A stretch of 29,813 nucleotides of DNA from the IMG/VR virus record IMGVR_UViG_3300025646_000221, positions 1 to 29,813 of that record; one strand, given 5' to 3'. This document shows, one piece after another, positions 3 through 29,102 of this stretch. Below the pieces are notes generated by a model that saw only the letters and a list, made by a program, of their open reading frames with translations, made no database searches and was not told the origin of the DNA. This DNA comes from a virus. Positions within the stretch are counted from its first letter, which is position 1. Each line of letters begins with the position of its first letter. Both the position numbers and the translations under genes were made by a program.

Positions 3-1562
3 GAACTACAGGGTTTATTTAAAAAGATTGCTAAAAAGAAAGCAGTCAATATAAAAAAATATCCTAATGCTGAAGTAGTATTAAAAGATATTCAAAAAGA
101 TTTGAATTTACCTATTGCTATTAAAGTAGACAAAGATGGTACACTAGATGTAGTTCACAAGACTATTATGAGAAAGAAAAATTTCACTACAACAAGCCCC
201 GTGATTAAATACGAATCATATGAACTTGATGAAGGTTTAAACGATCCTGGTATATTCAAAGCAGTATTTTTAGCTGGTGGTCCTGGTTCTGGTAAATCGT
301 TTATTGTAGGTAGAACTGGTTTAGTAGGATTAGGTTTAAAATTAGTAAACTCAGATCCAATTTTTGAATTAGGTTTAAAAAATGCTGGACTGAAAACAAC
401 ACCAGAAGATATCTATACAGCAAAAGGACAATCTATACGAGATCGTGCTAAGGCTCTTACTAAAAAACAACAATCTTTATATCTAAATGGTAGACTTGGT
501 TTAGTAATTGATGGTACTGGTAAAGATTATCAAAAAATTCAAAAACAAAAAGAACAACTAGAAGCTATGGGTTATGAAACTGCTATGATTTTTGTCAACA
601 CAGATGAAGATACAGCACTTGAAAGAAATCGTAAACGAGATAGAAGTCTTCCTGATGAAGAAGTAACAAAAATGTGGAAGTCTGTACAGAACAATTTAGG
701 TAAGTTTCAGAATAGTTTTAAACCCAAATTCTTTATTGTAGATAATTCAGAAGGTTCTAATTTTGAAGCCGCTTCTACCTCTGTTTACAAAAAAATATCT
801 GCATGGATGAAACAAGAACCACGTAATAAATTTGCACAAAACTGGATTAGTCAAGCTAAGTCTGCTAGAGGCATCAATGAAGAGTTTGTGCAATATATGT
901 ATCTTGAAGAGAAATCTTTAGAAGGATTGAAAAAGAAAGCAGAGAAGTCTGGTATCTCTTATAGTATTCTAAAGAAAGTATATGATAGAGGTATGGCTGC
1001 TTGGAAGGGTGGTCATCGTCCAGGTACAACACCTCAACAATGGGCTTATGCTCGTGTCAACTCATTCATTACTGGTGGCAAGACAAGAACAACTGCTGAT
1101 GCTGATTTATGGAAGAATGTTCGTAAAGAAGAACTATCCATTGATGAGAAGTTCTCTATACAGAACGAAGCAAAGTCATGGGCGCAACAAGCTGCTATTG
1201 CTATTGCTAAAAAGAAATCTGGTAAGTATGATGATGAAGGTAAGAGAATAAAAGAAGGTGATGCAATGGATACGGTTAAACAACGGCACACTAGCGAGAA
1301 AGAGGCACTGAAAACTAAACATGATCGCGAAATGGATGCAGCAAGACTTAGAGATGCCCGTACAAAGAATAGAATGACAAGTAGAAATGAAGAGTTTGAA
1401 AACTTATTTAAAAAAGACTTAAATGAATCTTTTGAGATGGCAACGACTTCTGGTATTGGTGTTACCTATTTCGCTAAAGATCTAGGTATTAAGACTCTAG
1501 CAGGATTTGCTTTGCATCCTTCAGTTTTAGTAGATGAGGAGGAGGAAGATGGTGAAGTTTAA
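3..1562 (+). CDS. P-loop kinase-like, multi-module phage protein (5' partial)
   Basis: The reading frame is open back to the first bases of the window, so the TTG at 102 is not a convincing start and the N-terminus is missing. After a YELDEG segment (nt 222-236) comes a P-loop, GGPGSGKS (nt 276-299), followed by a zeta-toxin or polynucleotide-kinase-like alpha/beta domain with VIDGTG and an FVNTDED stretch. A second module around nt 912-1115 carries the hallmark GMAAWKGGHRPGTTPQQW and resembles a domain found in many marine phage proteins (DUF5824-like, from memory). The C-terminal third is charged and helical. L/I-x-E tripeptides (LDE 225-233, LEE 903-911, IDE 1140-1148, LNE 1419-1427) lie at module borders and fit a T4 gp21-type protease consensus. 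The kinase fold is clear; its substrate and role are unknown. The stop overlaps the next gene by 14 bases. Confidence 0.75.
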   Translation, partial: ELQGLFKKIAKKKAVNIKKYPNAEVVLKDIQKDLNLPIAIKVDKDGTLDVVHKTIMRKKNFTTTSPVIKYESYELDEGLNDPGIFKAVFLAGGPGSGKSFIVGRTGLVGLGLKLVNSDPIFELGLKNAGLKTTPEDIYTAKGQSIRDRAKALTKKQQSLYLNGRLGLVIDGTGKDYQKIQKQKEQLEAMGYETAMIFVNTDEDTALERNRKRDRSLPDEEVTKMWKSVQNNLGKFQNSFKPKFFIVDNSEGSNFEAASTSVYKKISAWMKQEPRNKFAQNWISQAKSARGINEEFVQYMYLEEKSLEGLKKKAEKSGISYSILKKVYDRGMAAWKGGHRPGTTPQQWAYARVNSFITGGKTRTTADADLWKNVRKEELSIDEKFSIQNEAKSWAQQAAIAIAKKKSGKYDDEGKRIKEGDAMDTVKQRHTSEKEALKTKHDREMDAARLRDARTKNRMTSRNEEFENLFKKDLNESFEMATTSGIGVTYFAKDLGIKTLAGFALHPSVLVDEEEEDGEV

Positions 1563-2082
1563 GAATCATCTAATTTCAGAAGCGATTGAATATCATATTG
1601 CAAAAGATATTCCTTTTGCCGAATCTATTTTTAGATATGGTTCAGAAAAATACTTTGAAGTAATTAATGAAGTTCGTAGAAGATATGAAGAAGAGGGTCT
1701 AGAACTTACACCTCTTGACGAAGATTTTCTTAATAGTGATATTGGAAATTTTGCTGAAGTAGATGGTGTTGATGTTCCTCTAGACTTTCCTATGATAGAT
1801 GAAGAAGAGACACCAGAATTAAACAAACCAAAAAGAGGTGGACCTAAGAAGTATTATGTTTATGTGAGAGATCCATCAACTAAGAATATTAAGAAAGTGA
1901 CTTGGGGAGATACAACAGGGCTAAAGGTAAAACTCAATGATCCTGGAGCACGAAAGTCATTTGCAGCAAGACATAGATGTCATATGCAAAATGATAAAAC
2001 AACAGCGGCGTATTGGGCTTGTCGTCTTCCTTATTATGCAAAGAGCCTTGGGTTAAGTGGCGGAGGATCCTTCTTTTGGTAA
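1549..2082 (+). CDS. Probable capsid-internal / prohead protein
   Basis: The protein has 177 residues. I chose ATG 1549 over the in-frame ATG at 1534 because the GGAGGAGG tract (1536-1545) is an ideal ribosome binding site for it. The N-terminus, MVKFKNHLISEA, resembles the capsid-targeting peptide of T4 internal proteins (recalled as MKTYQEFIAE followed by Ala), with I-S-E before the putative cut. The middle is acidic. The last 75 residues form a module with KKYYVYVRDPS, KSFAARHRCH and AAYWACRLPYYAKSLG, a pattern I associate with uncharacterised T4-like head-region proteins of marine phages. Its place after the kinase-like gene and before the modular scaffold-like gene fits a head role. Function is inferred from context only. 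Confidence 0.6.
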   Translation: MVKFKNHLISEAIEYHIAKDIPFAESIFRYGSEKYFEVINEVRRRYEEEGLELTPLDEDFLNSDIGNFAEVDGVDVPLDFPMIDEEETPELNKPKRGGPKKYYVYVRDPSTKNIKKVTWGDTTGLKVKLNDPGARKSFAARHRCHMQNDKTTAAYWACRLPYYAKSLGLSGGGSFFW

Positions 2083-2610: not shown

Positions 2611-2904
2611 ATGTCTTACATTCTAACTCCCACAGGTCGTCGTTTTCTTCGTGAAGAAACCATAGAAGAGAAAAAAGACGGCGAAGATGTTAAAGATACC
2701 ATGCATGATTGTGCTACTCATGTAGTACATGAAGAATATGGCGAGGGTATTACTATCTCTGAACAACATGCGGATCCAGATGAGAATGGTCAAATTGAGT
2801 GGTATACAGTTGCTTTTCGCAATGGTCTAACAGAGAAGGTTTCTACTAAAGACATTGAAATCACCAAATCCGAATCCCACATGCATAGTAAAAAGAAGAA
2901 ATAA
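2611..2904 (+). CDS. Small conserved phage protein behind a late promoter
   Basis: A 97-residue protein with a good AGAGGA ribosome binding site (2599-2604), first in the unit after the late promoter. It begins MSYILTPTGRRFLREETIEEKK, where LREE and IEE again match the L/I-x-E protease consensus. The central part (CATHVVHEEYGEGITISEQH, then IEWYTVAFRNGLTEKVSTKDI) looks like a small beta-barrel of the KOW/SH3 or Tudor type, as in proteins with the pattern HxxYGEGxV. It ends in a basic Lys tail. It lies one base from the large modular gene at 2906, so the two are co-translated. Function unknown; a head-interior role is suggested by position only. Confidence 0.6.
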   Translation: MSYILTPTGRRFLREETIEEKKDGEDVKDTMHDCATHVVHEEYGEGITISEQHADPDENGQIEWYTVAFRNGLTEKVSTKDIEITKSESHMHSKKKK

Positions 2905-2905
2905 A

Positions 2906-5065
2906 ATGTTCCCTAAGAATCTCTTTAATAGCCCCGATGATCTTGTTAAAGCCGTCACAGAAATTATGACGGGTAAAAGCAAGAAAGAAGCGTTAGATCC
3001 TGTAGATGCGAAGGCATTAAAGGGTTCTCATGCTGATCGTAAAGACAAAGACATTGATAACGATGGTGATGTAGATAGTTCAGATGAGTATCTACACAAT
3101 CGTCGTAAAGCCGTAATGAAGGCAATGAAAGAAGCCACCAAGGTCAAAGAGAACGATGATAATGACGATGATGATATGGAAGATGACGACGATGAAATGA
3201 CCGATGCTCAAAAGAACGATATGGATGGCGACGGTAAGAACGACAAAAAGAAAAAGAAAAAGAAAGATGATGAGTTAAGTGATAAACCTGACAAGATCGA
3301 CACTAAACCATCAATGGACGATGCTCGTACAATGATGGCAAAAGAAGAAGTTGAACTTGATGAAGAAACTGTGTACGTAAAAAGACGTTATAAGTCTTTG
3401 GGAGCAAACCAAGCTGCAAACGATGTAGGGTTTGCTAAAAAAATAAGTAATGCTGCGTCTAAACTAGGGCTTTCTGTCAAAATGAATGATAAGAATTTTG
3501 TTATAAGTGGTGATCCAGAAAAACTAGCTACTTTGAAAAAAACAGTCAAAGGTGTTACTTTTTCTATGAAAGAAGATGTAGGTCTTGATGAAGGTAAGTC
3601 TGGTACTGGTTATGATCTATATCATAAAGATTTTTCTTCTGCTATGAAACACGCATATGATTTTGCAAAAAGAAAGTATGGTATTACAATCAGTAATGAT
3701 GAAATTGACGATAAGGTTGCAACCGGACCTAGAAAACCTTCAGAGGGTAAAACAAACAGTTATCGTTTAAAAGGTGACAAGGGCGCTATCCAAGTTCAAG
3801 TATACAACAAGGGTGGTTCAAAACCATTTGAGTTGAACATGTATAAAGAAGAAGTTGACCTTGATGAAGCAGACGTTTCTGTATATAAAAATACTGCAAG
3901 AAAAAATAAAAATGACGTTACATATGCTTTTGGTAGAACTAAAAAACTAGATGGCCAACCAAAAGAAAAGGGTGGATATTGGGTTTGGAAATTGTCGAAG
4001 AATTATGATGGAACAGTTCGGGGTGGTATTAGAACCTCATGGGTATATGTTGACAAAGATTTATCTTATTCTGATGCTGTCAAATTAATGAATAAAAAAC
4101 TTGGACGCAAAGAATTTAAAGAAGAAGTTGAACTTGATGAAGGTAAGATGGGTGACCAGTGGAAGAAGGGCGCCAAGTCAGTCAAGTCTGGTCCTTTCGA
4201 ACTTATGCGAGGCAAGAGTGGTGTTCATGCTATTATGCAGAACGGTAAGAAACTTGGTGACTTCTCATATGACGATGAAGCAGATAACTTCGTTGCAAAT
4301 ATGAAGGGTATGAAAGGTCAGTGGGTAGGTAATGATATCGACTCTCTTATCAATCATCTTCAGAAGGTTCACAAAGAAGAAGTTGAACTTGATGAAGCAT
4401 TTGATAAAGATATTGAGATGGGTATCAGTAAGGGCGAAAAAGTTAGGATGACCAATCCTAAATCATCCGCTCGTCACGTCGTCCATAAGATCAAGGGAGA
4501 CAAGGTTGTTATACATAGAAACGGAAACCCGGAAGATGAAGTTATAATGCCACTTAGTAGAATAAAGAGAGTTAAGAAACTTGCTCAGCAGTATAAAAAA
4601 GAAGGATATACTTCCAGTCTTGAAATGTCTGATGTTCAGATGAAGAAGCGTGAAGAAATTGTTAAAGGTATGAAGAAAAGCAGTGGTGATTTGAAAAAAC
4701 GTTATGGTGATCGTTGGAAAGATGTTATGTATGCAACTGCTACAAAACAAGCGATGAAAGAAGAAATGGTAGATGAAGCTCGTGGTCGTCCAAAGAAAGA
4801 AGATGATGTATCCACTGATTCTAACTTTGTTATGCAGATGAGGAAAGCAATTTCTCTAAATGGTAATAAAGTAAACTTCTTAGACGGTACGTCATCACAA
4901 GTTTCTAGTAGAGATGCACAACAATTTATGATAGTATATAATAAACAAAAATCTTCTATCGATAAAGGTAGATTGATGAACAGCGCCCATAAAAGCTTGA
5001 AACATTTTAAAATGGCTCTACAAGGTAAAATTGAAAAGCCAAAAAATCCATTAGACTTAGATTGA
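2906..5065 (+). CDS. Modular prohead-core-like polyprotein with repeated KEEVELDE linkers
   Basis: The frame is open further upstream, but ATG 2906 directly follows the previous stop and gives 719 residues. Residues 49-60 form an EF-hand/dockerin-like loop (DIDNDGDVDSSD) and 105-113 a second Asp-rich loop (DMDGDGKND), followed by a Lys tract. After that come modules bounded by near-identical octapeptides: KEEVELDE at 146-153, KEDVGLDE at 222-229, KEEVDLDE at 314-321, KEEVELDE at 405-412 and 490-497, and the variant KEEMVDEA near 618. Each ends in or near L-D-E, the L/I-x-E consensus of the T4 gp21 prohead protease. The modules of about 70-120 residues differ from each other; YDLYHKDFSSAMKHAYDFA and KREEIVKGMKKSSGDLKKR are segments I recognise as recurring in other marine phage proteins. 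Scaffold/core role and processing are inferred. Confidence 0.65.
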   Translation: MFPKNLFNSPDDLVKAVTEIMTGKSKKEALDPVDAKALKGSHADRKDKDIDNDGDVDSSDEYLHNRRKAVMKAMKEATKVKENDDNDDDDMEDDDDEMTDAQKNDMDGDGKNDKKKKKKKDDELSDKPDKIDTKPSMDDARTMMAKEEVELDEETVYVKRRYKSLGANQAANDVGFAKKISNAASKLGLSVKMNDKNFVISGDPEKLATLKKTVKGVTFSMKEDVGLDEGKSGTGYDLYHKDFSSAMKHAYDFAKRKYGITISNDEIDDKVATGPRKPSEGKTNSYRLKGDKGAIQVQVYNKGGSKPFELNMYKEEVDLDEADVSVYKNTARKNKNDVTYAFGRTKKLDGQPKEKGGYWVWKLSKNYDGTVRGGIRTSWVYVDKDLSYSDAVKLMNKKLGRKEFKEEVELDEGKMGDQWKKGAKSVKSGPFELMRGKSGVHAIMQNGKKLGDFSYDDEADNFVANMKGMKGQWVGNDIDSLINHLQKVHKEEVELDEAFDKDIEMGISKGEKVRMTNPKSSARHVVHKIKGDKVVIHRNGNPEDEVIMPLSRIKRVKKLAQQYKKEGYTSSLEMSDVQMKKREEIVKGMKKSSGDLKKRYGDRWKDVMYATATKQAMKEEMVDEARGRPKKEDDVSTDSNFVMQMRKAISLNGNKVNFLDGTSSQVSSRDAQQFMIVYNKQKSSIDKGRLMNSAHKSLKHFKMALQGKIEKPKNPLDLD

Positions 5066-5075
5066 GGAGAAAGTA

Positions 5076-5396
5076 ATGTTAGAAAGTGAATTGAAAAAAA
5101 TGTCAAAAAAAGAGTTAGAAGATCATGGGAGAACTCTTGATATTGAGTTAGATAGACGCGAATCAAAGTGGAAACTAGTACAACAGATTTTAGAAGCAGA
5201 AGCGAATGTATATTTTGCTGAAACTGAAGAAGAAGTTGTAGAAGAAATTTCAGTTGTTCAACCAGAAACTGTATCAACTAACTCAGAGTATGTTCTAGAA
5301 AAGAATGGTTCATTCTGGACTGTTCAATATAATGGTAGAGAAGTAAAGAAATCATCAAGTTTAGAAGTATGTCAGAGATTTATTGCTTCTAGATAA
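5076..5396 (+). CDS. SAP/HeH-like small phage protein
   Basis: A 106-residue protein preceded by GAGGAGAAAG at the right distance. Residues 1-40 (MLESELKKMSKKELEDHGR, then LDIELDRRESKWKLVQQIL) look like a helix-extended-helix or SAP-type DNA-binding fold, in which K-x-x-L-x-x-x-G ... D-R-R-x-x-K-x-x-L is typical. The middle is an acidic Glu-rich linker and the C-terminus (YVLEKNGSFWTVQYNGREV) looks like a small beta domain. It is the last gene before the virion protein at 5454 and lies 10 bases from the modular protein, so it probably shares its late transcript. DNA or capsid-interior binding is a guess. Confidence 0.6.
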   Translation: MLESELKKMSKKELEDHGRTLDIELDRRESKWKLVQQILEAEANVYFAETEEEVVEEISVVQPETVSTNSEYVLEKNGSFWTVQYNGREVKKSSSLEVCQRFIASR

Positions 5397-7636: not shown

Positions 7637-8157
7637 TGTCACAGACAGTAGATTTATTTTTAGTATATCATTTCATAAAAAGATTGTCAACACCTTTCAA
7701 CGAAACTAAGGCTTTTCGGTTAGGACTGATTGATGAGAAAGGAAAGAAATTAAAGAAAGCGTCTTCTTCAGAAGAGAAGAACGCAATGACTTATTATGAT
7801 CGTTTGATATTCAATCTCAAAAGACTTCTATCTAAAGTTGGAGTAGAAAGTAAGTTTACGACATTTGCCGCAGCACTATTTCTTATCAAAGAAGGGAATA
7901 AACCTAAAGATAAGAGAGTGACTTACATATCAGAAAGTGAATTTTATGAGTTTAAGAACGAAAATAAGAAACTTTTGTTGAGTTTAATGAATGAAGATGC
8001 TCCTGTTAATGCTGTGGGTGGTGGCAATATTGCTGGTGCTGGTCCTGGTGAAGATCCACCAATGAGAAAAAAAGTTATTGATAGATATAGAAAGAAAAAT
8101 AAAGCACAAGCAAATACTGTAGGTCGTAAAGTCTATTCGATGATAAGGACGACCTGA
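7636..8157 (+). CDS. Conserved T4-like virion-region protein
   Basis: 173 residues, coupled on both sides by one-base stop/start overlaps. It begins MSQTVDLFLVYHFIKRLSTP, continues with FNETKAFRLGLIDEKGK and TYYDRLIFNLKRLLSKV, and has the Gly-rich motif APVNAVGGGNIAGAG near residue 128. Such V-N-x-x-G-x-G-x-I-A-G motifs occur in structural proteins of several tailed phages that are annotated only as hypothetical. The last 35 residues are basic (KKVIDRYRKKNKAQ). Its place between a DUF7207-like gene and a large tail protein is typical of T4-like marine phages. Function unknown. Confidence 0.65.
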   Translation: MSQTVDLFLVYHFIKRLSTPFNETKAFRLGLIDEKGKKLKKASSSEEKNAMTYYDRLIFNLKRLLSKVGVESKFTTFAAALFLIKEGNKPKDKRVTYISESEFYEFKNENKKLLLSLMNEDAPVNAVGGGNIAGAGPGEDPPMRKKVIDRYRKKNKAQANTVGRKVYSMIRTT

Positions 8158-9719
8158 TGGCTCAGTGGCGTAAAGATATACAAGAATATGATGGTCAATC
8201 GACTCGTCATGAAGTACAAATTCGAGCAGATCAATACGGTAATTTGTTAGGTGAAGGTGCAACACATAAATCTGCATTTGGTGAACTTATATCAATACCT
8301 ATTACACCAGTAATTCAGTTGGATGGTCTTTACGGATTAACGTCAAATAAATTCGAAACATTTGTTGGTGCTGCTAGTGGTACCGCTAATACAACTCCTA
8401 CTCTTATGCAAGTTGGCACAGAATCTGGCATAGGAGGATATGGTGTTATTCGTTCTAGAAGAGTTGTTAGATATCGCCCAGGACAAGGAGCTTTGTGTAG
8501 ATTTACGGCAAAGTTTCATACAGGAACCGCAGGATATACACAAAGAGCAGGGTTTTTCGCACAAGAACAAGCACTTCAAATAGGATATGATGGCACGTCT
8601 TTTGGTATTCTAAGAGAAAATGGCGGTAAAGCTCATATTCACGTATTTCAAATAACAACACTAGATGCTGGAGATGTTACTGTTGAACTTAATGGAACAT
8701 CATACGCCGCAGTTACAGTATCTGGTACTACATTAGGTGATAGAATTGCTTCACTTAGTGTAGGTCTTTTATTAGACAACAGTTTCTCCGCAGCATGGAT
8801 ACCTGAATATGATAATACGAAGATTTGTTTTCTTTCTACAAGTCTTGGTGTTAAAGGCGGTGCTTATTCTATGTCTAGCACAGCAACAATCTCTACAACA
8901 AATAGTACTATACAAACGGGAATATCTACAACAGCTAATTGGATACCACAAACATCGTTCAATGTAGATAAGTTAGATGGAAATGGTCCAAGTGGTGTAT
9001 TATTAGATCCACAAAAATTAAATGTGTATCAAATAAATTTTCGTTGGTTGGGCGCTGGTGAAATGAGATTCGCGGTAGAGAATCCAATTAATGGTGATAT
9101 GATATTTTTTCACCATATTCATTATACTAATCAAAATACAGATGTACATATTGATAATCCTTCATTAAAAATTGGTTATGTGGCAGCAAGTCTCGGTGGA
9201 ACTGGGACGAATGTTATAGTTCAAGGTGCATCAATGATGGGCGCTGTAGAAGGATTAATATCACCTACAGCACAACCAACTTCTGCTACAAATACTAGAA
9301 CTGCAGGAATGAGTTCTGGTACAGAGTGGACTGTTCTGGGTATTAAAAATAACGTTATTCACACTAATAAAATTAACATGAGAGAGATGATATTAAAGTC
9401 ACTCAGTGTTGGTGGCACAACAGCAGGTGGAGCACCACTCACAGTAACGATGTGGTATAATCCTGTAACCATTGATAATCTGGTTTGGTTGCCAAGAGGA
9501 AATGAATCTGCTTCGTCATATAGTACAACAGAAACAAGTGTAACAACAACAGGTTTAATACCATTATTTTCTATTTTACTTTCTGATAATGCTTCAGAAA
9601 TTGTAAACCTAGATGATTTGAGAATAGTAATTCCACCCAATAATGAAATTGTAGTAACAGTAATATCTACTGCTAATATCAATAGAGCGGGCGTTGCATT
9701 AACTTGGTTAGAAGATTAA
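8157..9719 (+). CDS. Large virion / tail structural protein
   Basis: 520 residues, beta-rich, with Gly/Ser/Thr repeats and no enzymatic motif. The N-terminal portion (RKDIQEYDGQSTRHEVQIRA, then SAFGELISIPITPVIQLDG) is a block I associate with fibre or baseplate-attached adhesins of marine myoviruses: AFGE-L, then P-x-x-Q-x-x-x-x-Y. The middle looks like a lectin or jelly-roll type repeat. The C-terminus (SILLSDNASEIVNLDDLRIV, then IPPNNEIVVTVIS) resembles a terminal beta-sandwich. It closes the structural cluster; a lysis module follows after 10 bases. A receptor-interaction role is plausible but not shown. Start ATG 8157 overlaps the preceding TGA. Confidence 0.65.
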   Translation: MAQWRKDIQEYDGQSTRHEVQIRADQYGNLLGEGATHKSAFGELISIPITPVIQLDGLYGLTSNKFETFVGAASGTANTTPTLMQVGTESGIGGYGVIRSRRVVRYRPGQGALCRFTAKFHTGTAGYTQRAGFFAQEQALQIGYDGTSFGILRENGGKAHIHVFQITTLDAGDVTVELNGTSYAAVTVSGTTLGDRIASLSVGLLLDNSFSAAWIPEYDNTKICFLSTSLGVKGGAYSMSSTATISTTNSTIQTGISTTANWIPQTSFNVDKLDGNGPSGVLLDPQKLNVYQINFRWLGAGEMRFAVENPINGDMIFFHHIHYTNQNTDVHIDNPSLKIGYVAASLGGTGTNVIVQGASMMGAVEGLISPTAQPTSATNTRTAGMSSGTEWTVLGIKNNVIHTNKINMREMILKSLSVGGTTAGGAPLTVTMWYNPVTIDNLVWLPRGNESASSYSTTETSVTTTGLIPLFSILLSDNASEIVNLDDLRIVIPPNNEIVVTVISTANINRAGVALTWLED

Positions 9720-15566: not shown

Positions 15567-15731
15567 ATGGAAACAATAACATGTGAGGAGTGCGGAGCAG
15601 AATTTGATATACAACATAATGAAATAAATAAGGTCGCATACTGCCCATTCTGCGGAGAAGTCTTTCAACAAAATGAAGACTTCGATGAATGGGCAGAAGA
15701 CCGAGAATTTTGGGACGATGAAGACGAATAA
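15567..15731 (+). CDS. Zinc-ribbon 54-aa acidic peptide
   Basis: A 54-residue ORF with a CGGAGTATCAA ribosome binding site upstream. Two knuckles, TCEECGAEF and AYCPFCGEVF, form a C-x2-C...C-x2-C zinc ribbon. The tail is very acidic (EWAEDREFWDDEDE). Its stop overlaps the next start (TAATG). Similar mini zinc ribbons after ribonucleotide reductase genes occur in T4-like marine phages. A role as a binding adaptor is possible; the function is unknown. Confidence 0.65.
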   Translation: METITCEECGAEFDIQHNEINKVAYCPFCGEVFQQNEDFDEWAEDREFWDDEDE

Positions 15732-16138
15732 TGTATGATAATCCTTGGATGTACCAGGGAGAAGTATTTGATGAGAATTTAGTTGACAGGTATCATGGTT
15801 TCGTTTATTGTATTACTTGCCCCGATGGTAGAAAATATATTGGTAGAAAGACATTTTGGTTCATGAGAAAAACTCGTGGGGCGAAGCGGCGTAGTCGTAT
15901 CGAAAGTGATTGGCGTGATTATTATGGTTCGAGTGATGTTGTGAAAGATCTTATAAATCAATCTGAGACAAGTAATTTTCAAAGAGAGATACTATCATTA
16001 CATAAGACTAAAGGTGAAATGAACTATACTGAAGTTAAAGAGCAGTTTCAGAGAAATGTTTTAGAATCGTCGGAATATCTCAATGATAACATCAATGGCC
16101 GGTATTTTAAATCGAGAGTGGAGAAATGGTTAGAATAA
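15731..16138 (+). CDS. GIY-YIG endonuclease, SegE-like
   Basis: 135 residues. The GIY-YIG core is visible as GFVYCIT (23-29) and KYIGRKTF (35-42), with the catalytic Arg likely in the RRSRIESDWRDYYGSS stretch (the family has R...Y/W-x-x-Y-x-G-S) and Glu in QREILS. This layout matches the small SegE-like phage enzymes, single-strand or double-strand nicking homing-type nucleases without a separate DNA-binding domain. It may be a free-standing homing endonuclease or a resident DNA-processing enzyme; no intron is seen nearby. It is coupled to the zinc-ribbon gene. Confidence 0.75.
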   Translation: MYDNPWMYQGEVFDENLVDRYHGFVYCITCPDGRKYIGRKTFWFMRKTRGAKRRSRIESDWRDYYGSSDVVKDLINQSETSNFQREILSLHKTKGEMNYTEVKEQFQRNVLESSEYLNDNINGRYFKSRVEKWLE

Positions 16139-16160
16139 TGATGATGAAATGGAGCTGAAT

Positions 16161-16709
16161 ATGCAAAATGAATTGCCAGATCATTTGGGTGGTCAAAATG
16201 GTAGGAGTTGGACGGATGATGGATCGCTTAATATTATGTGGAATCTTGGTTGCCGAAAGATGCTTGATGTCGGCTGCGGATTTGGAGGTCAAGTTAAATT
16301 AGCAGAATCTCTTGGATGGGAATCTTATGGCGTTGATGGTGATTGGACAGTCCTTCCTAAAGAATCCAATTTTCATTTAAATGATTATACAAAAGGAAGT
16401 CCTACTTTAACTTATGAAGTTGATTTAATTTGGTGTGTAGAATTTTTAGAGCATGTAGAAGAAAAGTATATGGACAACTATATGTCTACATTTCAAGATA
16501 GTAAAGCAAAATATCTTATCGTCACCCATGCTGTACCAGGACAAGCCGGTCATCACCATGTTAACTGTCAAGAGAAAGATTACTGGCTAGATGCTTTCAA
16601 AAGATATGGATTTGAATATGATGAAACACTTACTAAACAAATTCGAGAAGAATCTACTATGAAAAAACCTTTTGTTGCCAGAACAGGATTAGTATTTAAG
16701 AGGAGTTAA
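16161..16709 (+). CDS. SAM-dependent methyltransferase
   Basis: 182 residues. ATG 16161 was chosen over 16149 because GGAG (16151-16154) is 6 bases upstream of it. Motif I is LDVGCGFGGQ (35-44), motif II is YGVDGDW (56-62), and motif IV is VDLIWCVEFLEHVEE with the class I pattern W-C-x-E-x-x-E-H. The later HAVPGQAGHHHVNCQEKDYW segment is typical of small sugar or lipid O-methyltransferases (methyltransf_11/23-type). It is the first gene of the surface-glycan cassette and may methylate a sugar or phosphate group; the substrate cannot be read from the sequence. Confidence 0.8.
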   Translation: MQNELPDHLGGQNGRSWTDDGSLNIMWNLGCRKMLDVGCGFGGQVKLAESLGWESYGVDGDWTVLPKESNFHLNDYTKGSPTLTYEVDLIWCVEFLEHVEEKYMDNYMSTFQDSKAKYLIVTHAVPGQAGHHHVNCQEKDYWLDAFKRYGFEYDETLTKQIREESTMKKPFVARTGLVFKRS

Positions 16710-16711
16710 TA

Positions 16712-17584
16712 ATGTTGTATAATGATGTATATAAAAGTTCTCATAAAACTCTTGATAGGTATCCTCTAAATGATGTAGATTTAACTGAGAAAGGTATTCA
16801 TCTATATAGAAAACTTCAGGCAGAAATTAAACACTTTCAAAGATTAAAACAAGTTGACCAAGAGAACTTAGACTATTATAATGTAGGATTAATAGTTCAT
16901 AAAGGATTTGTTGGTTCTAGTGTTGACGTTGAAAGGGCTTTAAAAGAATTCGAAAATTTCGAGGTATCGGTATCTAAAAATTCTAACAATATTCTTTCAA
17001 TGAATAGAGATAAGTCTAGATTATTATATAATATATCATTACTAATCTATCCCCACATTTATAAACTTATTGGAGGAGATGAACGAGAAGTAGAAACCAA
17101 GTTCAGAAATAACACATTTGCTCAAATCGTAAGAAATAGACCAGGAGATGACGATCATCAAAAATTAATGCATCTAGATACATACTTTCCTGCAATCAAG
17201 TTTTGGTGGTTTCCAAAGAAAGTCGATGATGGTCCATTAATGTTTGCTAAGGGTAGTACAAAATCAAACGAAAAAATGCAGATGTGGTATTATCAACAAA
17301 GTGTAAAAGCGTGTAAAAAAGAATACGAAGAGTGGAGAGCAAAAGATCATTATGAAGGATCGTTTAGAGTAAGTGAAGAAGAATTACAAGAGATGGGTTA
17401 TGAAATGGAACCCATCTACGTAAACGAAGATACATTAGTTATTGCTAATGTTGGTGGTTTTCATTCTAGAGGTAATACAAAAGAATTGAATAGAAGAGTT
17501 GCTATTCATGGCAGTGTAAGATTAGATAATCCGTTGGGAGATACAATATATGTTAAAGATATACTCAAAAGTTTATCCAGATAA
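16712..17584 (+). CDS. PhyH-like 2-oxoglutarate/Fe(II) dioxygenase
   Basis: 290 residues with AGGAG upstream. The C-terminal half has the facial-triad arrangement: His154-Leu-Asp156 in LMHLDTYFPAIKFWWFP, distal His251 in ANVGGFHSRGNT, and Arg253 or Arg262 (ELNRRVAIHGSVR) to bind 2-oxoglutarate. The spacing of about 95 residues fits the family. KVDDGPLMFAKGSTK matches the PhyH G-P-x-x-x-x-x-G-S segment. The N-terminal 130 residues are helical and not recognisable. Such enzymes hydroxylate small molecules or sugars; here the substrate is probably a precursor of the glycan cassette (inference). Confidence 0.7.
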   Translation: MLYNDVYKSSHKTLDRYPLNDVDLTEKGIHLYRKLQAEIKHFQRLKQVDQENLDYYNVGLIVHKGFVGSSVDVERALKEFENFEVSVSKNSNNILSMNRDKSRLLYNISLLIYPHIYKLIGGDEREVETKFRNNTFAQIVRNRPGDDDHQKLMHLDTYFPAIKFWWFPKKVDDGPLMFAKGSTKSNEKMQMWYYQQSVKACKKEYEEWRAKDHYEGSFRVSEEELQEMGYEMEPIYVNEDTLVIANVGGFHSRGNTKELNRRVAIHGSVRLDNPLGDTIYVKDILKSLSR

Positions 17585-17972
17585 GTTATGTCATATGGTA
17601 TATCGTTCTGACGATTTATCAGAGAATAGAGAAGATGTTGCACCAGAAGATCAATTTATTCAAGTCTCGGCTTTAAAATTAGAAGCAGGAAAGACGTTTC
17701 GACCACATAGACACATTTGGAAAAATGCCCCTAGAAAACAAGTTGTCGCTCAAGAATCTTGGTGCGTTATGGAAGGTAAAGTAAAAGCACATTTCTATGA
17801 CGTGGATGATACTATTTTAGAAGAAATTGTTTTAAATTCAGGAGATATTTCACTTACGTTTGAAGGTGGTCACACATACACAATTTTAGAAAACGCTAAA
17901 GTTTATGAATACAAAACTGGTCCATATGAAGGTGTAGAAAAGGACAAGGTATTTTTAAATGGGAACGTATAA
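17550..17972 (+). CDS. Cupin-fold protein of the glycan cluster
   Basis: 140 residues. ATG 17550 has GGGAG 9 bases upstream; it overlaps the previous gene by 35 bases and the next by 14. The cupin core reads FRPHRHIWKNAPRKQVVAQE, then SWCVMEGKVKAHFYD and GGHTYTI: two His, a Glu and a late His as metal ligands. I have seen this domain type in bacterial LPS and capsule loci, where cupins act as sugar isomerases or epimerases (FdtA/WbuC-like). Whether this one is catalytic is unknown. Confidence 0.65.
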   Translation: MLKIYSKVYPDKLCHMVYRSDDLSENREDVAPEDQFIQVSALKLEAGKTFRPHRHIWKNAPRKQVVAQESWCVMEGKVKAHFYDVDDTILEEIVLNSGDISLTFEGGHTYTILENAKVYEYKTGPYEGVEKDKVFLNGNV

Positions 17973-18648
17973 CGTTCGTGGTGGACTAGGCACTCAAATA
18001 CTATCACTTTATACATGTTACGCCATAGCTAAAGAAAATAATACAACAGTAAATAAAATATTGTTTAACACTGGTGGTTATTGGCAAAATTCAGATATTA
18101 TAATGGATGAAGATCGTATCTTTTTCGACGACTTTTTGACGTTCAAAAAAAGACCAGAAATTACTACGGTGATTGGTACTAATAAAACCAATCCTTTCAA
18201 AGAACCTAATGTTTCTCTCTTACTTAAATGGTGGGAAAATATTAATGAATCTGAAGTTAGTTTAAATTTGAACGGTTGTGATTATGTTAATTCTGGTAAA
18301 ACTGTGATTCATGTCAGACAATCAGATAGACCTTTGATACCAATTGAAGTATATGATGAAGAAATTAGATATCATAAAAATCCTATTATATTATCTGAAG
18401 ACAAATCTGTACATAAAAGATATGGTATTACACCAACAAACGATACTATAAAAGATTGGATGACTATATATCAAGCGCATACTGTTATTGGAGGATTTTC
18501 TTCTTTTGCATTACTTGCTGGTATGTGGAATCCAAATCTAAATGTTTATTTCTTTAATAAACTTTTGGCAAATCCAAATGTATCATTCGATGTCTGGAAT
18601 ATTATACATAAATTTGTAGAAAAATTCCCTAACATTAATTGGACATAA
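17959..18648 (+). CDS. Fucosyltransferase-like glycosyltransferase
   Basis: 229 residues. The N-terminal GGLGTQILSLYTCYAIAKE is the nucleotide-binding entry loop of GT11/NodZ-type fucosyltransferases (G-G-L-G-N-Q-x-x-x-x-x-x-A). His118-Val-Arg120 in TVIHVRQSDR is the conserved H-x-R-x-x-D motif. VIGGFSSFALLAGMW (about 176-190) corresponds to the donor-binding S-S-F-S-x-x-A segment. It is shorter than GT11 (about 290), so it may be a minimal or divergent member. GDP-sugar use is likely given the Gmd gene in the same cluster. Start ATG 17959 overlaps the cupin gene. Confidence 0.65.
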   Translation: MGTYNVRGGLGTQILSLYTCYAIAKENNTTVNKILFNTGGYWQNSDIIMDEDRIFFDDFLTFKKRPEITTVIGTNKTNPFKEPNVSLLLKWWENINESEVSLNLNGCDYVNSGKTVIHVRQSDRPLIPIEVYDEEIRYHKNPIILSEDKSVHKRYGITPTNDTIKDWMTIYQAHTVIGGFSSFALLAGMWNPNLNVYFFNKLLANPNVSFDVWNIIHKFVEKFPNINWT

Positions 18649-18666
18649 TATAATGGAGTCTTAAAA

Positions 18667-19305
18667 ATGAAAACTGTTTTGATACTCGGTGGCAGTGGTG
18701 GTATCGGTAAAGTTTTAACAGAAATTATGAAGGATAAATATAATGTTACATCTTTATCATCTAAAAATTTAGATGTAAGAAATCGTAAAGAATGTGATAT
18801 ATATTTTAAAACAAATCATTTTGATATTGTAGTAAACTTAGCAGCGTATAATGCTAATGGTTTTACACATAGCATTGGTTATATTGATACTGCCAATCAA
18901 GTAGATACAAACGTTTGGGGTACTCTAAATGTAGTTCAACTTTGTTTGAAACATTTTATGAGAGAACGTGGTGGTAATATTATTCTTGCCTCTTCTATTC
19001 TAGCGGATAAAGCTCAAGTAGGAACTTCTATATATTCAGCAACAAAGGGATTTATAGAATCATATGTTCGTACCGTTGCCGTAGAAAATTTTAATAAGAA
19101 TGTTTATATAAACGCTATTCAGTTGGGATACTTTGAAAAAGGTCTAACAGAAACTATTAGTGAAGATATTCAACAAGAGATAATGAAGAATATTCCCGCC
19201 AGACGATGGGGTAGAATTGAAGAAGTGTACAATACAATTGAATATATATTAAATACTAGTTATGTTTCTGGTCAAACACTTCGCATTAATGGCGGTCTGT
19301 TATGA
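18667..19305 (+). CDS. Short-chain dehydrogenase/reductase
   Basis: 212 residues with a TGGAG site. NAD(P)-binding GGSGGIGK (8-15), VNLAAYNANG (the N-A-A-G-like motif, about 57-66) and the catalytic Tyr123-x3-Lys127 in YSATKGF, with Ser about 13 residues earlier in ILASSIL. C-terminal RWGRIEEV...YVSGQTLRINGG is the FabG-like substrate/NAD loop ending. It probably reduces a keto sugar in the cassette; acyl carrier specificity seems less likely in this context. It is coupled by ATGA to the acyltransferase gene. Confidence 0.85.
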   Translation: MKTVLILGGSGGIGKVLTEIMKDKYNVTSLSSKNLDVRNRKECDIYFKTNHFDIVVNLAAYNANGFTHSIGYIDTANQVDTNVWGTLNVVQLCLKHFMRERGGNIILASSILADKAQVGTSIYSATKGFIESYVRTVAVENFNKNVYINAIQLGYFEKGLTETISEDIQQEIMKNIPARRWGRIEEVYNTIEYILNTSYVSGQTLRINGGLL

Positions 19306-19814
19306 ATCCTGAATTAGTAGATCATGGTTCATTTTGTAAGTATAAATTAGAATCAACGTTTGGAGATTACGTTGTTCTAGATTATAACGTATTTTCTTCT
19401 GTTATTATGGATATTGGTGACTGGGTTCATATTGCTCCACAGGTTGCTATTATTGGCGGCAGGACTTCCAAGCTTGTTATGGGTCATTTTAGTGGTATCA
19501 GTGCTGGCGGCAAAGTTATTTGTGGTGGAGATGATTTTGCTTCTGGCTCTCTTATGAATCCACAAGTACCTAGTAAGTACCGAATTTCAAATATAACTAC
19601 AGTAACATTTGAGCCATTTTCTTGTATTGGTGTCAATAGTGTTGTTATGCCTGGAATTACTCTAGGTGAAGGAGCAGTAGTAGGTTCAAACTCGACGCTT
19701 ACTAAAGATGCTGAACCATGGACAATCTATGTTGGCAGTCCTGCAAGACCTGTAAAGAAAAGACCAAACGAACTTGCTTATAAGTATGCTAGGGAGTTAG
19801 GTTATGACTTTTAA
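19302..19814 (+). CDS. Left-handed beta-helix (hexapeptide) acyltransferase
   Basis: 170 residues of LbH-type hexapeptide repeats: GDYVVLDYNVFSSVIMDIGD, HIAPQVAIIGG, then FSGISAGGKVICGGD and the terminal ITLGEGAVVGSNSTLTKDAE ... YVGSPARPVKKR. The S-P-A-R-P-V-K/R ending is diagnostic of sugar O- or N-acetyltransferases (WbbJ, NeuD, PerB relatives). It would acylate a nucleotide sugar with acetyl-CoA or another acyl-CoA. It sits two genes before a DegT-type aminotransferase and three before Gmd, consistent with N-acylation of an amino sugar. Coupled on both sides by overlap. Confidence 0.8.
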   Translation: MNPELVDHGSFCKYKLESTFGDYVVLDYNVFSSVIMDIGDWVHIAPQVAIIGGRTSKLVMGHFSGISAGGKVICGGDDFASGSLMNPQVPSKYRISNITTVTFEPFSCIGVNSVVMPGITLGEGAVVGSNSTLTKDAEPWTIYVGSPARPVKKRPNELAYKYARELGYDF

Positions 19815-20604
19815 TAAATTCTGGAATAGTGAAGGTTATGATATCATTGATTTGGAGTTGACTGATGCCGAAATTAATGGTATAAATGATGATGTAACAA
19901 ACATTCTAGCACTAGAGAATAAGACGATTCAATCTGACCATTATCAATATACACAGTGGCCCAGATTATTTGAAGCGTGGAAAAAGAGTAGAAATATCGC
20001 CAATCTCTGTATGAATGAAAAAATACTTCGTCGTCTAGAAAATTGGTATATGAAGAAGGCATTTCCGTTTTCTACAATCAATTTTACGGGCCCATCTAAT
20101 CAACCTCTACATAGTGATTGTATTCATTTTCATACCATACCAGAGAGAATGATGATTGGTGTATGGGTTGCTTTAGAAGACGCGACTATAGAGAATGGTA
20201 CTTTGTCTGTAGTTCCAGGTAGTCACGACTGGGATATATATAACTATGAATCTCTAGGCCTTCCACATCCAGACGATATAGATAATGGTGAAGAGATAAA
20301 CTATAGAGAATATGAGAAGTTTATAGAGCATCTTGTTTTGATAAAAAAAGGAAAGAGAACTCCTGTTCCCGTGAAAAAAGGTGAAGCGATTATATGGGAA
20401 GCAAATCTTCTACATGGCGGCACATTTACGCCACACAAAGATAAAACGAGAAAAGCACAGGCGATACACTACTTCTTTGAGGGGTGTTCTGAGTACTATC
20501 ATCCAATGTTCTCTAGACCTAGCGAAGGTAAGTATGCTAAAAAATGGTGTAACGAGAATAATAATATAAGAACATATCTGGAGGATATTGATGGTAGAAT
20601 ATAA
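19804..20604 (+). CDS. Phytanoyl-CoA dioxygenase (PhyH)-family 2OG/Fe(II) enzyme
   Basis: 266 residues, close to family length. The facial triad is clear: His103-Ser-Asp105 in NQPLHSDCIHFHTIPE, distal His204 in WEANLLHGGTFTPH, and an Arg about 14 residues on in KTRKAQAIHYFF. The segment MIGVWVALEDATIENGTLSV followed by VPGSH is diagnostic of PhyH enzymes (W-x-A-L-D/E...N-G-x-L-x-x-x-P-G-S-H). It hydroxylates an aliphatic or sugar-linked substrate with 2-oxoglutarate and Fe(II). Phage homologues are common in marine viruses; the substrate here is unknown. It overlaps the upstream acyltransferase gene by 11 bases. Confidence 0.85.
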   Translation: MTFNKFWNSEGYDIIDLELTDAEINGINDDVTNILALENKTIQSDHYQYTQWPRLFEAWKKSRNIANLCMNEKILRRLENWYMKKAFPFSTINFTGPSNQPLHSDCIHFHTIPERMMIGVWVALEDATIENGTLSVVPGSHDWDIYNYESLGLPHPDDIDNGEEINYREYEKFIEHLVLIKKGKRTPVPVKKGEAIIWEANLLHGGTFTPHKDKTRKAQAIHYFFEGCSEYYHPMFSRPSEGKYAKKWCNENNNIRTYLEDIDGRI

Positions 20605-21298
20605 CGCATGGCCTATAGGACAACTACCTAAACATTTACAAAGACCAGAGCTAGACCAAATTAGAGAACTCGGTTACGATTGGAAAGATCCACGCGATAT
20701 AGTAGATATGTTTGAAAAAAAGGTTGCCAAATACGCAGGATCAAAGTACGCGGTTTCTGTAGACTGTTGTTCACACGGTATCTTTCTAGCATTACAATGT
20801 ATAAAAAGACACAGATCGAACGGCCGTAAAAATATATCAACTCTCACTATTCCTAAACACACATATGTTTCAGTACCTCAACAGATAATACATGCCGGAT
20901 TTAAAGTAAAATTAGAAGATAGAGAATGGTCAGGTATATATCAGTTAAAACCTTATAGAATATGGGATGGAGCTACTCGTTGGCAAAGAGATATGTACAT
21001 GGGTGGATTTCATATCGTTTCTTTTCAATTAAAGAAAAGAGTACCTATTGGTAGAGGTGGTATGATTTTACTTGACAATAAGAACGAATACGAGTATCTT
21101 AAAAAGATTAGATACGATGGTAGAGATTTAGATGGTAAATATGATGAAGATTCCTTTGAACACTTGGGGTGGCATTATTATATGACACCAGAAGACGCCG
21201 CTCGTGGTATCATTATTATGGACCAGACTCCTGAATATAATGATGATAGTGGTGGTTGGAAGAATTATCCTGATTTATCAAAAGCGAGGTTTTTTTAA
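20591..21298 (+). CDS. Short DegT/DnrJ/EryC1-type PLP aminotransferase
   Basis: 235 residues. ATG 20591 has GGAGG 6 bases upstream and is preferred to the TTG three bases earlier. Features of the family: IVDMFEKKVAKYAGSKYAVS, SHGIFLALQCI (PLP-phosphate loop), IPKHTYVSVPQQI, WDGATRWQRDMY (the D-x-A-H/T-x-x-G region) and FQLKKRVPIGRGGMILL with the Schiff-base Lys at 148 or 149. Typical members have about 370 residues; this one lacks most of the C-terminal small domain. It may be a minimal enzyme, need a partner, or be a remnant. Sugar 4-amination, for instance to perosamine, is suggested by the adjacent Gmd. Confidence 0.75.
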   Translation: MVEYNAWPIGQLPKHLQRPELDQIRELGYDWKDPRDIVDMFEKKVAKYAGSKYAVSVDCCSHGIFLALQCIKRHRSNGRKNISTLTIPKHTYVSVPQQIIHAGFKVKLEDREWSGIYQLKPYRIWDGATRWQRDMYMGGFHIVSFQLKKRVPIGRGGMILLDNKNEYEYLKKIRYDGRDLDGKYDEDSFEHLGWHYYMTPEDAARGIIIMDQTPEYNDDSGGWKNYPDLSKARFF

Positions 21299-22263
21299 TG
21301 AAAGCGTTAATTACAGGTATTAGTGGACAAGACGGATCTTATCTTACAGAATATCTTTTAAGTCTTGATTACGAAGTACATGGTATTGTCCGTAGACATA
21401 GTGTAGCAGAAAATCAAAGCGCAAGATTAGAAAAATTCTCTGATAAAATTGCCGGTCTTCATTACGGCGATCTATTAGATGTACACTCATTATATGATAT
21501 CGTTAATAAAATTAAACCAGATGAAATCTATAATTTGGCTGCTATGAGTCAAGTTAGGATTTCTTCTGACATCCCCTCTTTTACTATTAAAACAAATTCT
21601 CTAGGCGTTTTAAATATGCTAGAGATTACTAGTAAACTCTGCCCAGAAGCAAAGTTTTATCAAGCATCTTCTAGTGAAATGTTTGGTAACAGTGTAGATG
21701 AGGACGGGTTTCAAAGACTAACAACACCAATGAATCCTGTCAGTCCATACGGTTGTTCTAAAGTTCTTGGTTATAATCTTGTAAGACATTATAGACACGG
21801 ATATAATATGCATGCTTGTAACGGAATTTTATTCAATCACGAATCTCCTAGACGTGGAACAAACTTTGTAACGAATAAAGTTGTGAAGAACGCTGTTCTA
21901 ATCAAGAAAAACAAACTCAATAAACTTGAGATGGGTAATATGGATAGCAGTCGTGATTGGGGTCATAGTTCTGATTATGTTAGAGCAATGCACAAAATTA
22001 TTAATCATAGTGATCCAGACGATTGGATTGTAGCAACTGGTAAATCCTATACTGTCCGACAAATGTGTGAATATGTCTTTGGCCGACTAGATTTAAATTA
22101 TGAAGACTTTGTAGTACAAAATCCAAAATATATGAGACCAGAAGAATTGAAATATCTCTGTGGTGATTCAGAAAAAACTAGAAAGATACTAAATTGGAAA
22201 CCTAATTATACTTTTGAGTTAATGTTAGAAGAGATGATAGAATATTGGATGGGTAAAACATGA
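21298..22263 (+). CDS. gmd: GDP-mannose 4,6-dehydratase
   Basis: 321 residues, slightly below the usual 345-370. The Rossmann entry is TGISGQDGSYLTEYLL (6-21), then VHGIVRRHS. The catalytic set Ser125, Glu127 (SSSEMFGN), Tyr151 and Lys155 (YGCSK) is intact. NHESPRRGTNFVT and RDWGHSSDYVRAM are diagnostic of Gmd rather than of other NDP-sugar dehydratases. It makes GDP-4-keto-6-deoxy-D-mannose, precursor of GDP-fucose, GDP-rhamnose and GDP-perosamine. It overlaps the aminotransferase stop by one base and the next gene by ATGA. Confidence 0.92.
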   Translation: MKALITGISGQDGSYLTEYLLSLDYEVHGIVRRHSVAENQSARLEKFSDKIAGLHYGDLLDVHSLYDIVNKIKPDEIYNLAAMSQVRISSDIPSFTIKTNSLGVLNMLEITSKLCPEAKFYQASSSEMFGNSVDEDGFQRLTTPMNPVSPYGCSKVLGYNLVRHYRHGYNMHACNGILFNHESPRRGTNFVTNKVVKNAVLIKKNKLNKLEMGNMDSSRDWGHSSDYVRAMHKIINHSDPDDWIVATGKSYTVRQMCEYVFGRLDLNYEDFVVQNPKYMRPEELKYLCGDSEKTRKILNWKPNYTFELMLEEMIEYWMGKT

Positions 22264-22943
22264 AAATTGTTTTCGCCTGTTGTGATCCCATCTATTTAAA
22301 AGAACATGGAGAGGCGTTTGCTAAGAGTGCGATAAAGAATGGCGAAACACCTTGGATTCATATTCTTTGTGACGAAGAAACGAAACAAGAGATTTTAAAT
22401 CAGAATTCTTTTGATTGGCATATCGGGTGTCATTTTAGTTTTAGTGACATTGAACCAAAAGATCGCATGATGTATGCTTGTTCTAGATTTATCGTTGCTA
22501 CTGATATAATTAGACAAGACAATGTTTCTGAAATGTTGATTGTTGATATTGATGGATTTCTAAGAAAACCTATTGATTGGGACGATTTTAAAAATTGCGA
22601 TTATTCAATTTTCACAAGAGATCCGTTACCAGGAACAGTAGGATGGGAAAATGAGGGAACCCATGTAGCTGCTGGGGCTATGTATCTGAGAAAGTCTGGT
22701 TATAGTTTCATTGATACTGTGGCACATAATCTCATGGAAAATATCAAAAAGCATGGTTGTATTTGGTTTATGGATCAAGTCATTTTGTGGAAAGTTCATC
22801 AAAATATAAAAAACTTGAAGTTTGTTCAGATGCCCTCTAAGTATATTGATTGGGAGTTTAATGAAGACAGTATCATCTGGTCCGGCAAAGGTAATCGAAA
22901 AAATCAAAAAAACTATCTAGAGGAACGCAAAAGTGCAAGTTGA
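22260..22943 (+). CDS. GT-A-type glycosyltransferase-like protein (DxD)
   Basis: 227 residues. It starts MKIVFACCDPIYLKEHGEAF, resembling GT8-type N-termini, and carries Asp96-Ile-Asp98 in LIVDIDGFLRKPID, the metal/nucleotide-sugar binding motif. THVAAGAMYLRKSG and HGCIWFMDQVILW correspond to the acceptor and catalytic segments of such enzymes (N/A-G-x-x-x-x-x and F-x-D-Q-x-x-x), and IWSGKGNRKNQ ends with the W-x-x-x-G-K-G-x-R type loop. Transfer of a sugar onto the growing glycan is likely; donor and acceptor are unknown. Confidence 0.6.
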   Translation: MKIVFACCDPIYLKEHGEAFAKSAIKNGETPWIHILCDEETKQEILNQNSFDWHIGCHFSFSDIEPKDRMMYACSRFIVATDIIRQDNVSEMLIVDIDGFLRKPIDWDDFKNCDYSIFTRDPLPGTVGWENEGTHVAAGAMYLRKSGYSFIDTVAHNLMENIKKHGCIWFMDQVILWKVHQNIKNLKFVQMPSKYIDWEFNEDSIIWSGKGNRKNQKNYLEERKSAS

Positions 22944-28553: not shown

Positions 28554-28581
28554 AACTATAGTTGATGAAGGAGTGAATGAC

Positions 28582-29082: not shown

Positions 29083-29102
29083 TGGATGAAGAAGTGAATG
29101 AC

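Follow-up and report, generated by a model that had tools for sequence, protein, structure and literature searches.

The closest described counterparts of the protein considered here are the internal proteins of phage T4 (IPI, IPII, IPIII and Alt), small cargo proteins that are each encoded by a gene of their own, carry one N-terminal targeting peptide with an L/I-x-E site and leave the head with the DNA at infection. T4 gp21, whose protease family (S77) is common to T4 and its relatives, cleaves after the Glu of L/I-x-E (PMC9026906), and it also degrades the core proteins gp22, gp67 and gp68 to peptides (PMC9958956). In the giant phages phiKZ and SPN3US, many head-internal proteins are likewise processed by a prohead protease, which cleaves behind the Glu of a short motif, though there cleavage removes propeptides (PMC5694885, PMC9026906, PMC10052503), and the word "polyprotein" occurs 0 times in PMC5694885 and PMC10052503. 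Here we describe a predicted 719-residue protein from a marine bacteriophage sequence, IMG/VR record IMGVR_UViG_3300025646_000221, the whole of which (29,813 nt) is the window analysed. At the sequence level this protein consists of distinct modules parted by protease-site-like linkers, and we put at roughly 60% the probability that it is a precursor from which an S77 protease releases several head-internal proteins, in the manner of the T4 internal-protein system.

Compared with the T4 internal proteins, the 719-residue protein shares the L/I-x-E sites and the small putative cargo, and one of its modules, m3, is known both behind a leader and behind a linker. It differs in that its unrelated modules are held together in one chain by five or six sites, and because it has no IPIII-like leader we do not class it as a T4 internal protein. 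T4 gp22, gp67 and gp68 resemble it in having several gp21-type sites per chain and an acidic stretch, but they are core or scaffold proteins that are encoded beside gp21 and degraded, whereas genes of the kind described here have replication genes nearby in three cultured relatives, and they hold conserved, distinct modules. The cyanophage cytidylyltransferase cluster T4-GC190 shares the genomic cluster, an IPIII-like start, linker-like sites and detection in virions, but in the published text seen it is described as putatively virion-associated or structural, without a linker or polyprotein architecture.

Linkers and modules of the 719-residue protein

The gene and its parts are as follows; in the linkers and elsewhere below, a slash stands after the last Glu of the site.

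2906..5065, plus strand: linker polyprotein of 719 residues, an open frame with an ATG start
2906..3340, plus strand: N-terminal part, residues 1-145, acidic, with an EF-hand-like loop and an "MF..S.SLIDAV"-type start
3050..3085, plus strand: DxDxDG loop DIDNDGDVDSSD, residues 49-60, with related stretches in S-SM1 and IMG/VR open reading frames (ORFs)
3341..3364, plus strand: linker 1, KEEVELDE/E, residues 146-153
3365..3568, plus strand: module m1, residues 154-221, no relative found
3569..3592, plus strand: linker 2, KEDVGLDE/G, residues 222-229
3593..3844, plus strand: module m2, residues 230-313, widespread, with 36 ORF matches in the fetched loci
3845..3868, plus strand: linker 3, KEEVDLDE/A, residues 314-321
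3869..4117, plus strand: module m3, residues 322-404, which at other loci occurs after a T4-type targeting peptide, after different linkers or on its own (phiM12 gp205)
4118..4141, plus strand: linker 4, KEEVELDE/G, residues 405-412
4142..4372, plus strand: module m4, residues 413-489, found in 13 loci
4373..4396, plus strand: linker 5, KEEVELDE/A, residues 490-497
4397..4756, plus strand: module m5, residues 498-617, part of which (KKREEIVKGMKK...YGDR..VMYATATK) is widespread
4757..4777, plus strand: linker 6, the variant KEEMVDE/A, residues 618-624
4778..5062, plus strand: module m6, residues 625-719, with 38 ORF matches in the fetched loci, near-duplicates counted

The initial annotation had described five near-identical octapeptides and a sixth variant that divide the protein into mutually unlike modules, and both statements are borne out: the sites begin at residues 146, 222, 314, 405, 490 and 618, and the segments do not resemble each other, since the best blastp match between any two of them, run in one direction per pair, had E = 0.33. 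Six linker sites in one chain compare with a mean of 0.007 and a maximum of 1 in 5000 shuffles of the protein. The 145-residue N-terminal part is followed by segments of 68, 84, 83, 77, 120 and 95 residues between or after the linkers. The first segment is strongly acidic (isoelectric point, pI, of 4.6 for residues 1-153), four of the modules have a pI of at least 9.5, and the Asp-rich loop DIDNDGDVDSSD is one that we take to be of the EF-hand/dockerin type. No Pfam family scored above its cut-off for the protein, and its PHROG matches, phrog_22379 (residues 27-169), phrog_4359 (12-87) and phrog_24586 (325-406), all of unknown function, likewise give none; phrog_20988 matched marginally (E 0.09).

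Several modules recur widely. Scanning at the protein level turned up relatives of the 719-residue protein at 19 loci, among them ORFs that have three or four of these linkers and a differing module order, and on sequence grounds we place the protein in a large modular family that occurs in T4-superfamily, Kyanoviridae-like phages. The m2 count was obtained with a query that included the flanking linkers and counts near-duplicate contigs; of the 12 m4 loci examined, 9 have the module directly after an EE[VT]xL[DE]E linker, one after a VIEE site and two after neither. For m1, an IMG/VR scan gave 14 pattern matches, none of them a relative.

Linkers as module boundaries and candidate protease sites

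A codon-degenerate scan found KEEVELDE encoded in at least 119 IMG/VR stretches, against 13 for the reversed peptide. Two modules, VFNGTKK... and AVKISHV..., are common to two loci (L013 and L016, where the gene runs off the contig), in different genes and bounded by linkers in both. More generally, ends of high-scoring segment pairs fell within 3 residues of a linker in 21.6% of cases, compared with 3.7% when linkers were displaced, and near a linker in both partners in 8.5% against 0.13% (707 ends from 67 non-redundant ORFs with at least two linkers, with linkers masked; these counts, like the residue and match counts given elsewhere, include related sequences, so their independence is overstated). 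Because alignment ends concentrate at the linkers, we regard them as seams of module exchange.

Such exchange could also mean that the linker is a recombination seam at the DNA level and that its peptide has no function, and one 21-mer is indeed common to 49 of the 167 EEVELDE sites. This explanation is hardly credible, as 50 distinct 21-mers encode the peptide, and pairwise codon identity of the linker, at 10.6 times the codon-use expectation, lies inside the range of 1.9 to 17.8 times for 11 other conserved peptides from the same set (18 peptides were tried and 13 with at least 8 occurrences reported, two of these being the linker). Codon uniformity is thus no higher in the linker than in other conserved peptides, so it is the peptide that is conserved and not the DNA, and we rejected conservation at the DNA level on this control.

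The form of the conserved peptide is consistent with a prohead-protease site. Five of the six linkers match the gp21 motif L/I-x-E, and all five [LI]xE sites of the protein lie inside linkers; the absence of others is not significant alone, because only 2.2 were expected outside. The residue after the linker, left free in both the peptide and the DNA pattern, was Ala in 65 and Gly in 33 of 197 distinct contexts (98 together), compared with 24 of 210 after [LI][DES]E elsewhere (in other ORFs within the fetched parts of four cultured relatives). In T4 the propeptide of the major capsid protein gp23 is 65 residues long (PMC9958956), and its sequence reads FLTE/A at E65; by our own reading, the corresponding regions of relatives are FLGE/I in HTVC008M, FLSE/A in Melnitz, ILTE/T in S-SM1 and LLTE/A in S-CREM2.

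Each of the nine cultured relatives searched (HTVC008M, Melnitz, S-SM1, S-CREM2, phiM12, S-B05, DSL-LC02, SCTP-2 and S-TIM4) encodes a protease of the gp21-type family, PF03420, with T4 as the positive control. Among IMG/VR records, 9 of 16 linker contigs, picked mostly by length among 80 listed loci, encode it, or 9 of the 13 that are at least 45 kb long, whereas it was found in 1 of 13 contigs of the reversed-peptide control (0 of 3 at least 45 kb long); two further contig sets gave 0 of 7 and 2 of 7.

Alternatively, the linkers may be flexible acidic spacers that stay uncut in a protein built like beads on a string, a quite unlikely explanation in our estimate. An AlphaFold2 model of m2 with its two linkers (22 sequences, mean predicted local distance difference test score, pLDDT, of 69) predicts a domain of two helices and three strands with block means of 69-84, and its low confidence at the linkers (below 50 for the first; the second within a block of mean 64, the next block at 52) would suit a spacer; that m2 itself is predicted to fold counts in favour of the precursor reading. 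The modules are also not depleted of internal [LI]xE, with 326 sites observed against 260 expected in 67 polyproteins, although this comparison is blunt because 118 of the 326 look by pattern like further linker variants. The observed-to-expected ratio of 1.26 equals that of control proteins (1.25), and we therefore rejected the idea that modules avoid the protease by carrying fewer internal sites. Uncut spacers, however, leave unexplained the Ala/Gly preference after the last Glu, the fixed L-D-E, and the start of the same module at the Glu of a targeting peptide described below.

A second common module has its own linker form, EEVEQIDE/LSKKTLGSYVKKA..., and recurs within single polyproteins (L057, L058, L062 and others). 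One of these, a 1432-residue ORF on the minus strand of L062, is by eye apparently split by an intein-like stretch inside its YPSAYANG module, starting at ...DVYP-CVPLDSLAIAKSG... and ending at ...LITITGN-SAYANG.

Targeting peptides, cultured relatives and virion data

One tie to the T4 internal proteins comes from m3, which we found in 13 IMG/VR loci, 12 of which were examined. In four it stands behind ESVDLDE (L175-L178) and in three behind EEVELDE (L179-L181), in two of which (L179 and L180) it lies within a cytidylyltransferase polyprotein starting MRSFRDITEA. In the other five (L182-L186), m3 directly follows a targeting peptide, MKTFIEYISE/GASVY, where the 719-residue protein reads KEEVDLDE/ADVSVY; T4 IPIII starts MKTYQEFIAEA. 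In the alignment, the distance from the Glu to the start of m3 is nearly equal in the linker and leader formats; an in-frame ATG lies upstream of the MKTF start in L184. The L182 contig, 119 kb long, encodes the S77 protease, and genes around this locus have similar starts (MKSFSQFTEEK, MKSFTEYLTEK, MKTFIEYISEG). In Sinorhizobium phage phiM12, m3 forms a lone 85-residue gene, gp205, without leader or linker in a replication-side region. A single module thus occurs both alone and behind the same kind of linker, as a check proposed in the initial annotation had envisaged.

The L182 gene (2968-3639) consists of a T4-type targeting peptide, m3 and a C-terminal part. By eye this last part (VYRGIS..., compare T4 Alt) was considered as an ADP-ribosyltransferase, but the resemblance is suggestive only, with no Pfam match and weak Tpt1 fold matches of a poor model. 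Fold searches with the L182 model (mean pLDDT 54) and with the m2 model gave no match at E <= 0.001.

IPIII-like starts were frequent beyond m3: 20 distinct matches occurred among 3592 candidates in 119 listed linker loci, against a mean of 0.14 and a maximum of 2 in shuffled sequences and 0 of 372 candidates in the 13 loci of the reversed-peptide set, a small control. The pattern was written after examples had been seen, guided by experimentally relevant positions 4, 7, 8 and 10 taken from a review, and its matches are candidate gene starts that were not individually confirmed. The fetched parts of four cultured phages gave three matches, the cytidylyltransferases of S-SM1 and S-CREM2 and a Melnitz gene at 12203. 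All three are located within, or immediately ahead of, the gene cluster homologous to that of the 719-residue protein, which is informative mainly for HTVC008M and Melnitz because S-SM1 and S-CREM2 were fetched for 49 and 30 kb only. By a crude pattern, an "MF...S.SLIDAV"-type start occurs in 10 of 67 polyproteins, including the 719-residue protein; it may be a targeting signal of a different kind or have no meaning.

In HTVC008M, Melnitz and S-SM1 the homologous cluster is flanked by helicase and primase/ribonucleotide reductase (RNR) genes, at a distance from the head block. This position among replication genes, together with the lone phiM12 gp205 near nrdJ, would suit multi-domain proteins that act outside the virion in early host takeover or replication. 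We consider this improbable, as IPIII-like starts occur within the cluster and members of it have been found in virions. In CsCl-purified S-CREM2 virions, table 3 of the published study gives 3 unique peptides for the cytidylyltransferase ORF154, 5 for ORF155, 6 for ORF156 and 7 for ORF160 (PMC10665884), and the proteins detected in S-SM1 virions include the cytidylyltransferase T4-GC190 as well as T4-GC15 (PMC3037559). S-CREM2 ORF160 contains a linker variant, EETEISE/GKKDACY..., and shares stretches with linker-bearing IMG/VR ORFs; the searches made found no homology between it and the 719-residue protein. For Melnitz and the pelagimyophages, no virion proteome was found in the parts of the papers covered (PMC9004378, PMC7029224).

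Cleavage at the linkers would also be expected if the protein were prohead core filler like T4 gp22 or gp67, with its fragments discarded and none delivered. T4 gp21 does reduce core proteins to peptides (PMC9958956), and the acidic first segment resembles such proteins. An N-terminal query also weakly matches scaffold ORFs of HTVC008M (E 3e-4) and Melnitz (E 2e-5), perhaps through low complexity. In S-CREM2, the cluster begins nearer the head genes, about 5 kb after gp23, the major capsid gene. Even there it stays outside the portal-gp21-gp23 block, the location typical of core and scaffold genes, and the other homologous clusters do so too. The sites of T4 gp22 are scattered along its sequence, whereas here they part distinct conserved modules, four of them basic; m3 recurs outside polyproteins, and neighbours and cluster relatives bear enzyme-like domains (cytidylyltransferase, P-loop). 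A role as core filler is therefore unlikely.

Several observations weigh against reading the 719-residue protein as a precursor of head-internal proteins. The sixth site, M-V-D-E, falls outside L/I-x-E, so that the initial annotation's prohead-protease-like linkers match the motif at five sites, with the Ala/Gly enrichment in their favour, but not at the sixth; the lack of internal [LI]xE depletion described above points the same way. The S77 protease is necessary but not specific, because any T4-like phage should have it, and cleavage need not mean delivery, since the core peptides made by gp21 leave the T4 head and disposal is possible. The protein starts MFPKNLFNSPDDLVKAVTEIM, a start of another class than the IPIII-like leader. 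Nor is m3 always head cargo, because phiM12 gp205 lacks leader and linker and lies near replication genes. No linker-rich protein is known to us from a cultured phage, because canonical linkers are rare there: we counted two in the whole Melnitz genome (EEIEIDE and EEVELDE), none in the HTVC008M cluster (with one unrelated-looking match elsewhere in that genome) and, by pattern, none in the fetched parts of S-CREM2 or phiM12, while the fetched part of S-SM1 has one EEVENVEE. The S-CREM2 authors allow that non-structural proteins may be carry-over of the CsCl purification (PMC10665884). Finally, no head genes turned up in the window, with neither PF03420 nor the gp23 family found in it; because of its 29.8 kb size we take it to be a genome fragment, and such a gap in a fragment does not argue that the phage lacks these genes. 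The initial annotation's title calls the polyprotein a "capsid" one, but nothing in the window shows a capsid identity.

With these points weighed, the best reading is that the linker polyprotein represents the T4 internal-protein system in a tandem form. The gene product would be a precursor in which cut sites connect six or seven small, independent proteins, and it would enter the prohead core during head assembly. There, each L-D-E would be cleaved behind its Glu by the phage's gp21-type (S77) protease, which would release the modules within the head; any that stay there would exit with the DNA at infection. Modules would be interchangeable, each standing either in its own gene behind a T4-like targeting peptide ending in [I/L]xE or in a polyprotein behind an LDE linker. 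For the 719-residue protein itself, we infer cleavage, packaging and delivery.

Genomic surroundings and wider meaning

Other genes in the window encode a primase, ThyX, a class II RNR and, at 8157-9719, a protein homologous to a virion structural protein from a cyanophage, because of which we assign the phage to the T4 superfamily as Kyanoviridae-like. The primase and RNR genes lie downstream of the gene for the 719-residue protein. Three neighbours upstream of it share features with it or with the targeting-peptide genes:

3..1562, plus strand: 5'-truncated gene with a P-loop/zeta-like domain and DUF5824, and linker-like sites ELDE/G, YLEE/K and SIDE/K
1549..2082, plus strand: gene with a targeting-peptide-like start, MVKFKNHLISE/A, shifted by one residue relative to IPIII, and an in-frame ATG upstream at 1534
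2611..2904, plus strand: gene matching a different part of PHROG profile 22379, which the 719-residue protein also matches

That the last of these and the 719-residue protein share PHROG 22379 suggests that they form one gene elsewhere. Directly downstream, the gene at 5076-5396, which contains EEVVEE, has a weak match (E 1.6e-4) to phrog_8608, "prohead protease inhibitor".

Further along the window, a gene at 15731-16138 bears the PHROG name "NAD synthetase" (phrog_447), yet homing-endonuclease PHROGs match it too, and a phiM12 gene annotated "NAD synthetase" carries a note naming a GIY-YIG domain, because of which the name may be a propagated error. The block at 16149-23901 appears by eye to hold methyltransferase, oxygenase, sugar and glycan genes, the sole PHROG match among the genes scanned there being a nucleotide-sugar epimerase (21298-22263). 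Two adjacent genes, 28573-29082 and 29076-29627, are paralogues with near-identical N-termini by eye and short repeats of the VSGxAxVSGxA type, and probably encode left-handed beta-helices.

Our searches found no published description of a linker-polyprotein architecture, subscription journals lying mostly outside their reach, and the linker peptide itself gave, among the matches listed, one unrelated food-science paper. We tentatively suggest, at somewhat worse than even odds, that in marine T4-superfamily phages L-D-E linkers are a plug-in cargo format, in which a gp21 site in front of any small protein lets it ride in the head. Modules would move freely between leader-bearing single genes and tandem polyproteins, and the family would amount to an extensive reservoir of head-delivered effectors, mostly unannotated and supplied in fixed ratio from one gene. 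If the linker polyproteins are indeed a tandem form of the T4 internal proteins, the head-delivered proteins of abundant marine phages would become readable from sequence by means of a short linker, and many unannotated modules would become testable candidates for proteins acting at the start of infection. Such a natural cargo system, taking unrelated folds, would extend the T4 targeting-peptide system to tandem cargo encoded by one gene.

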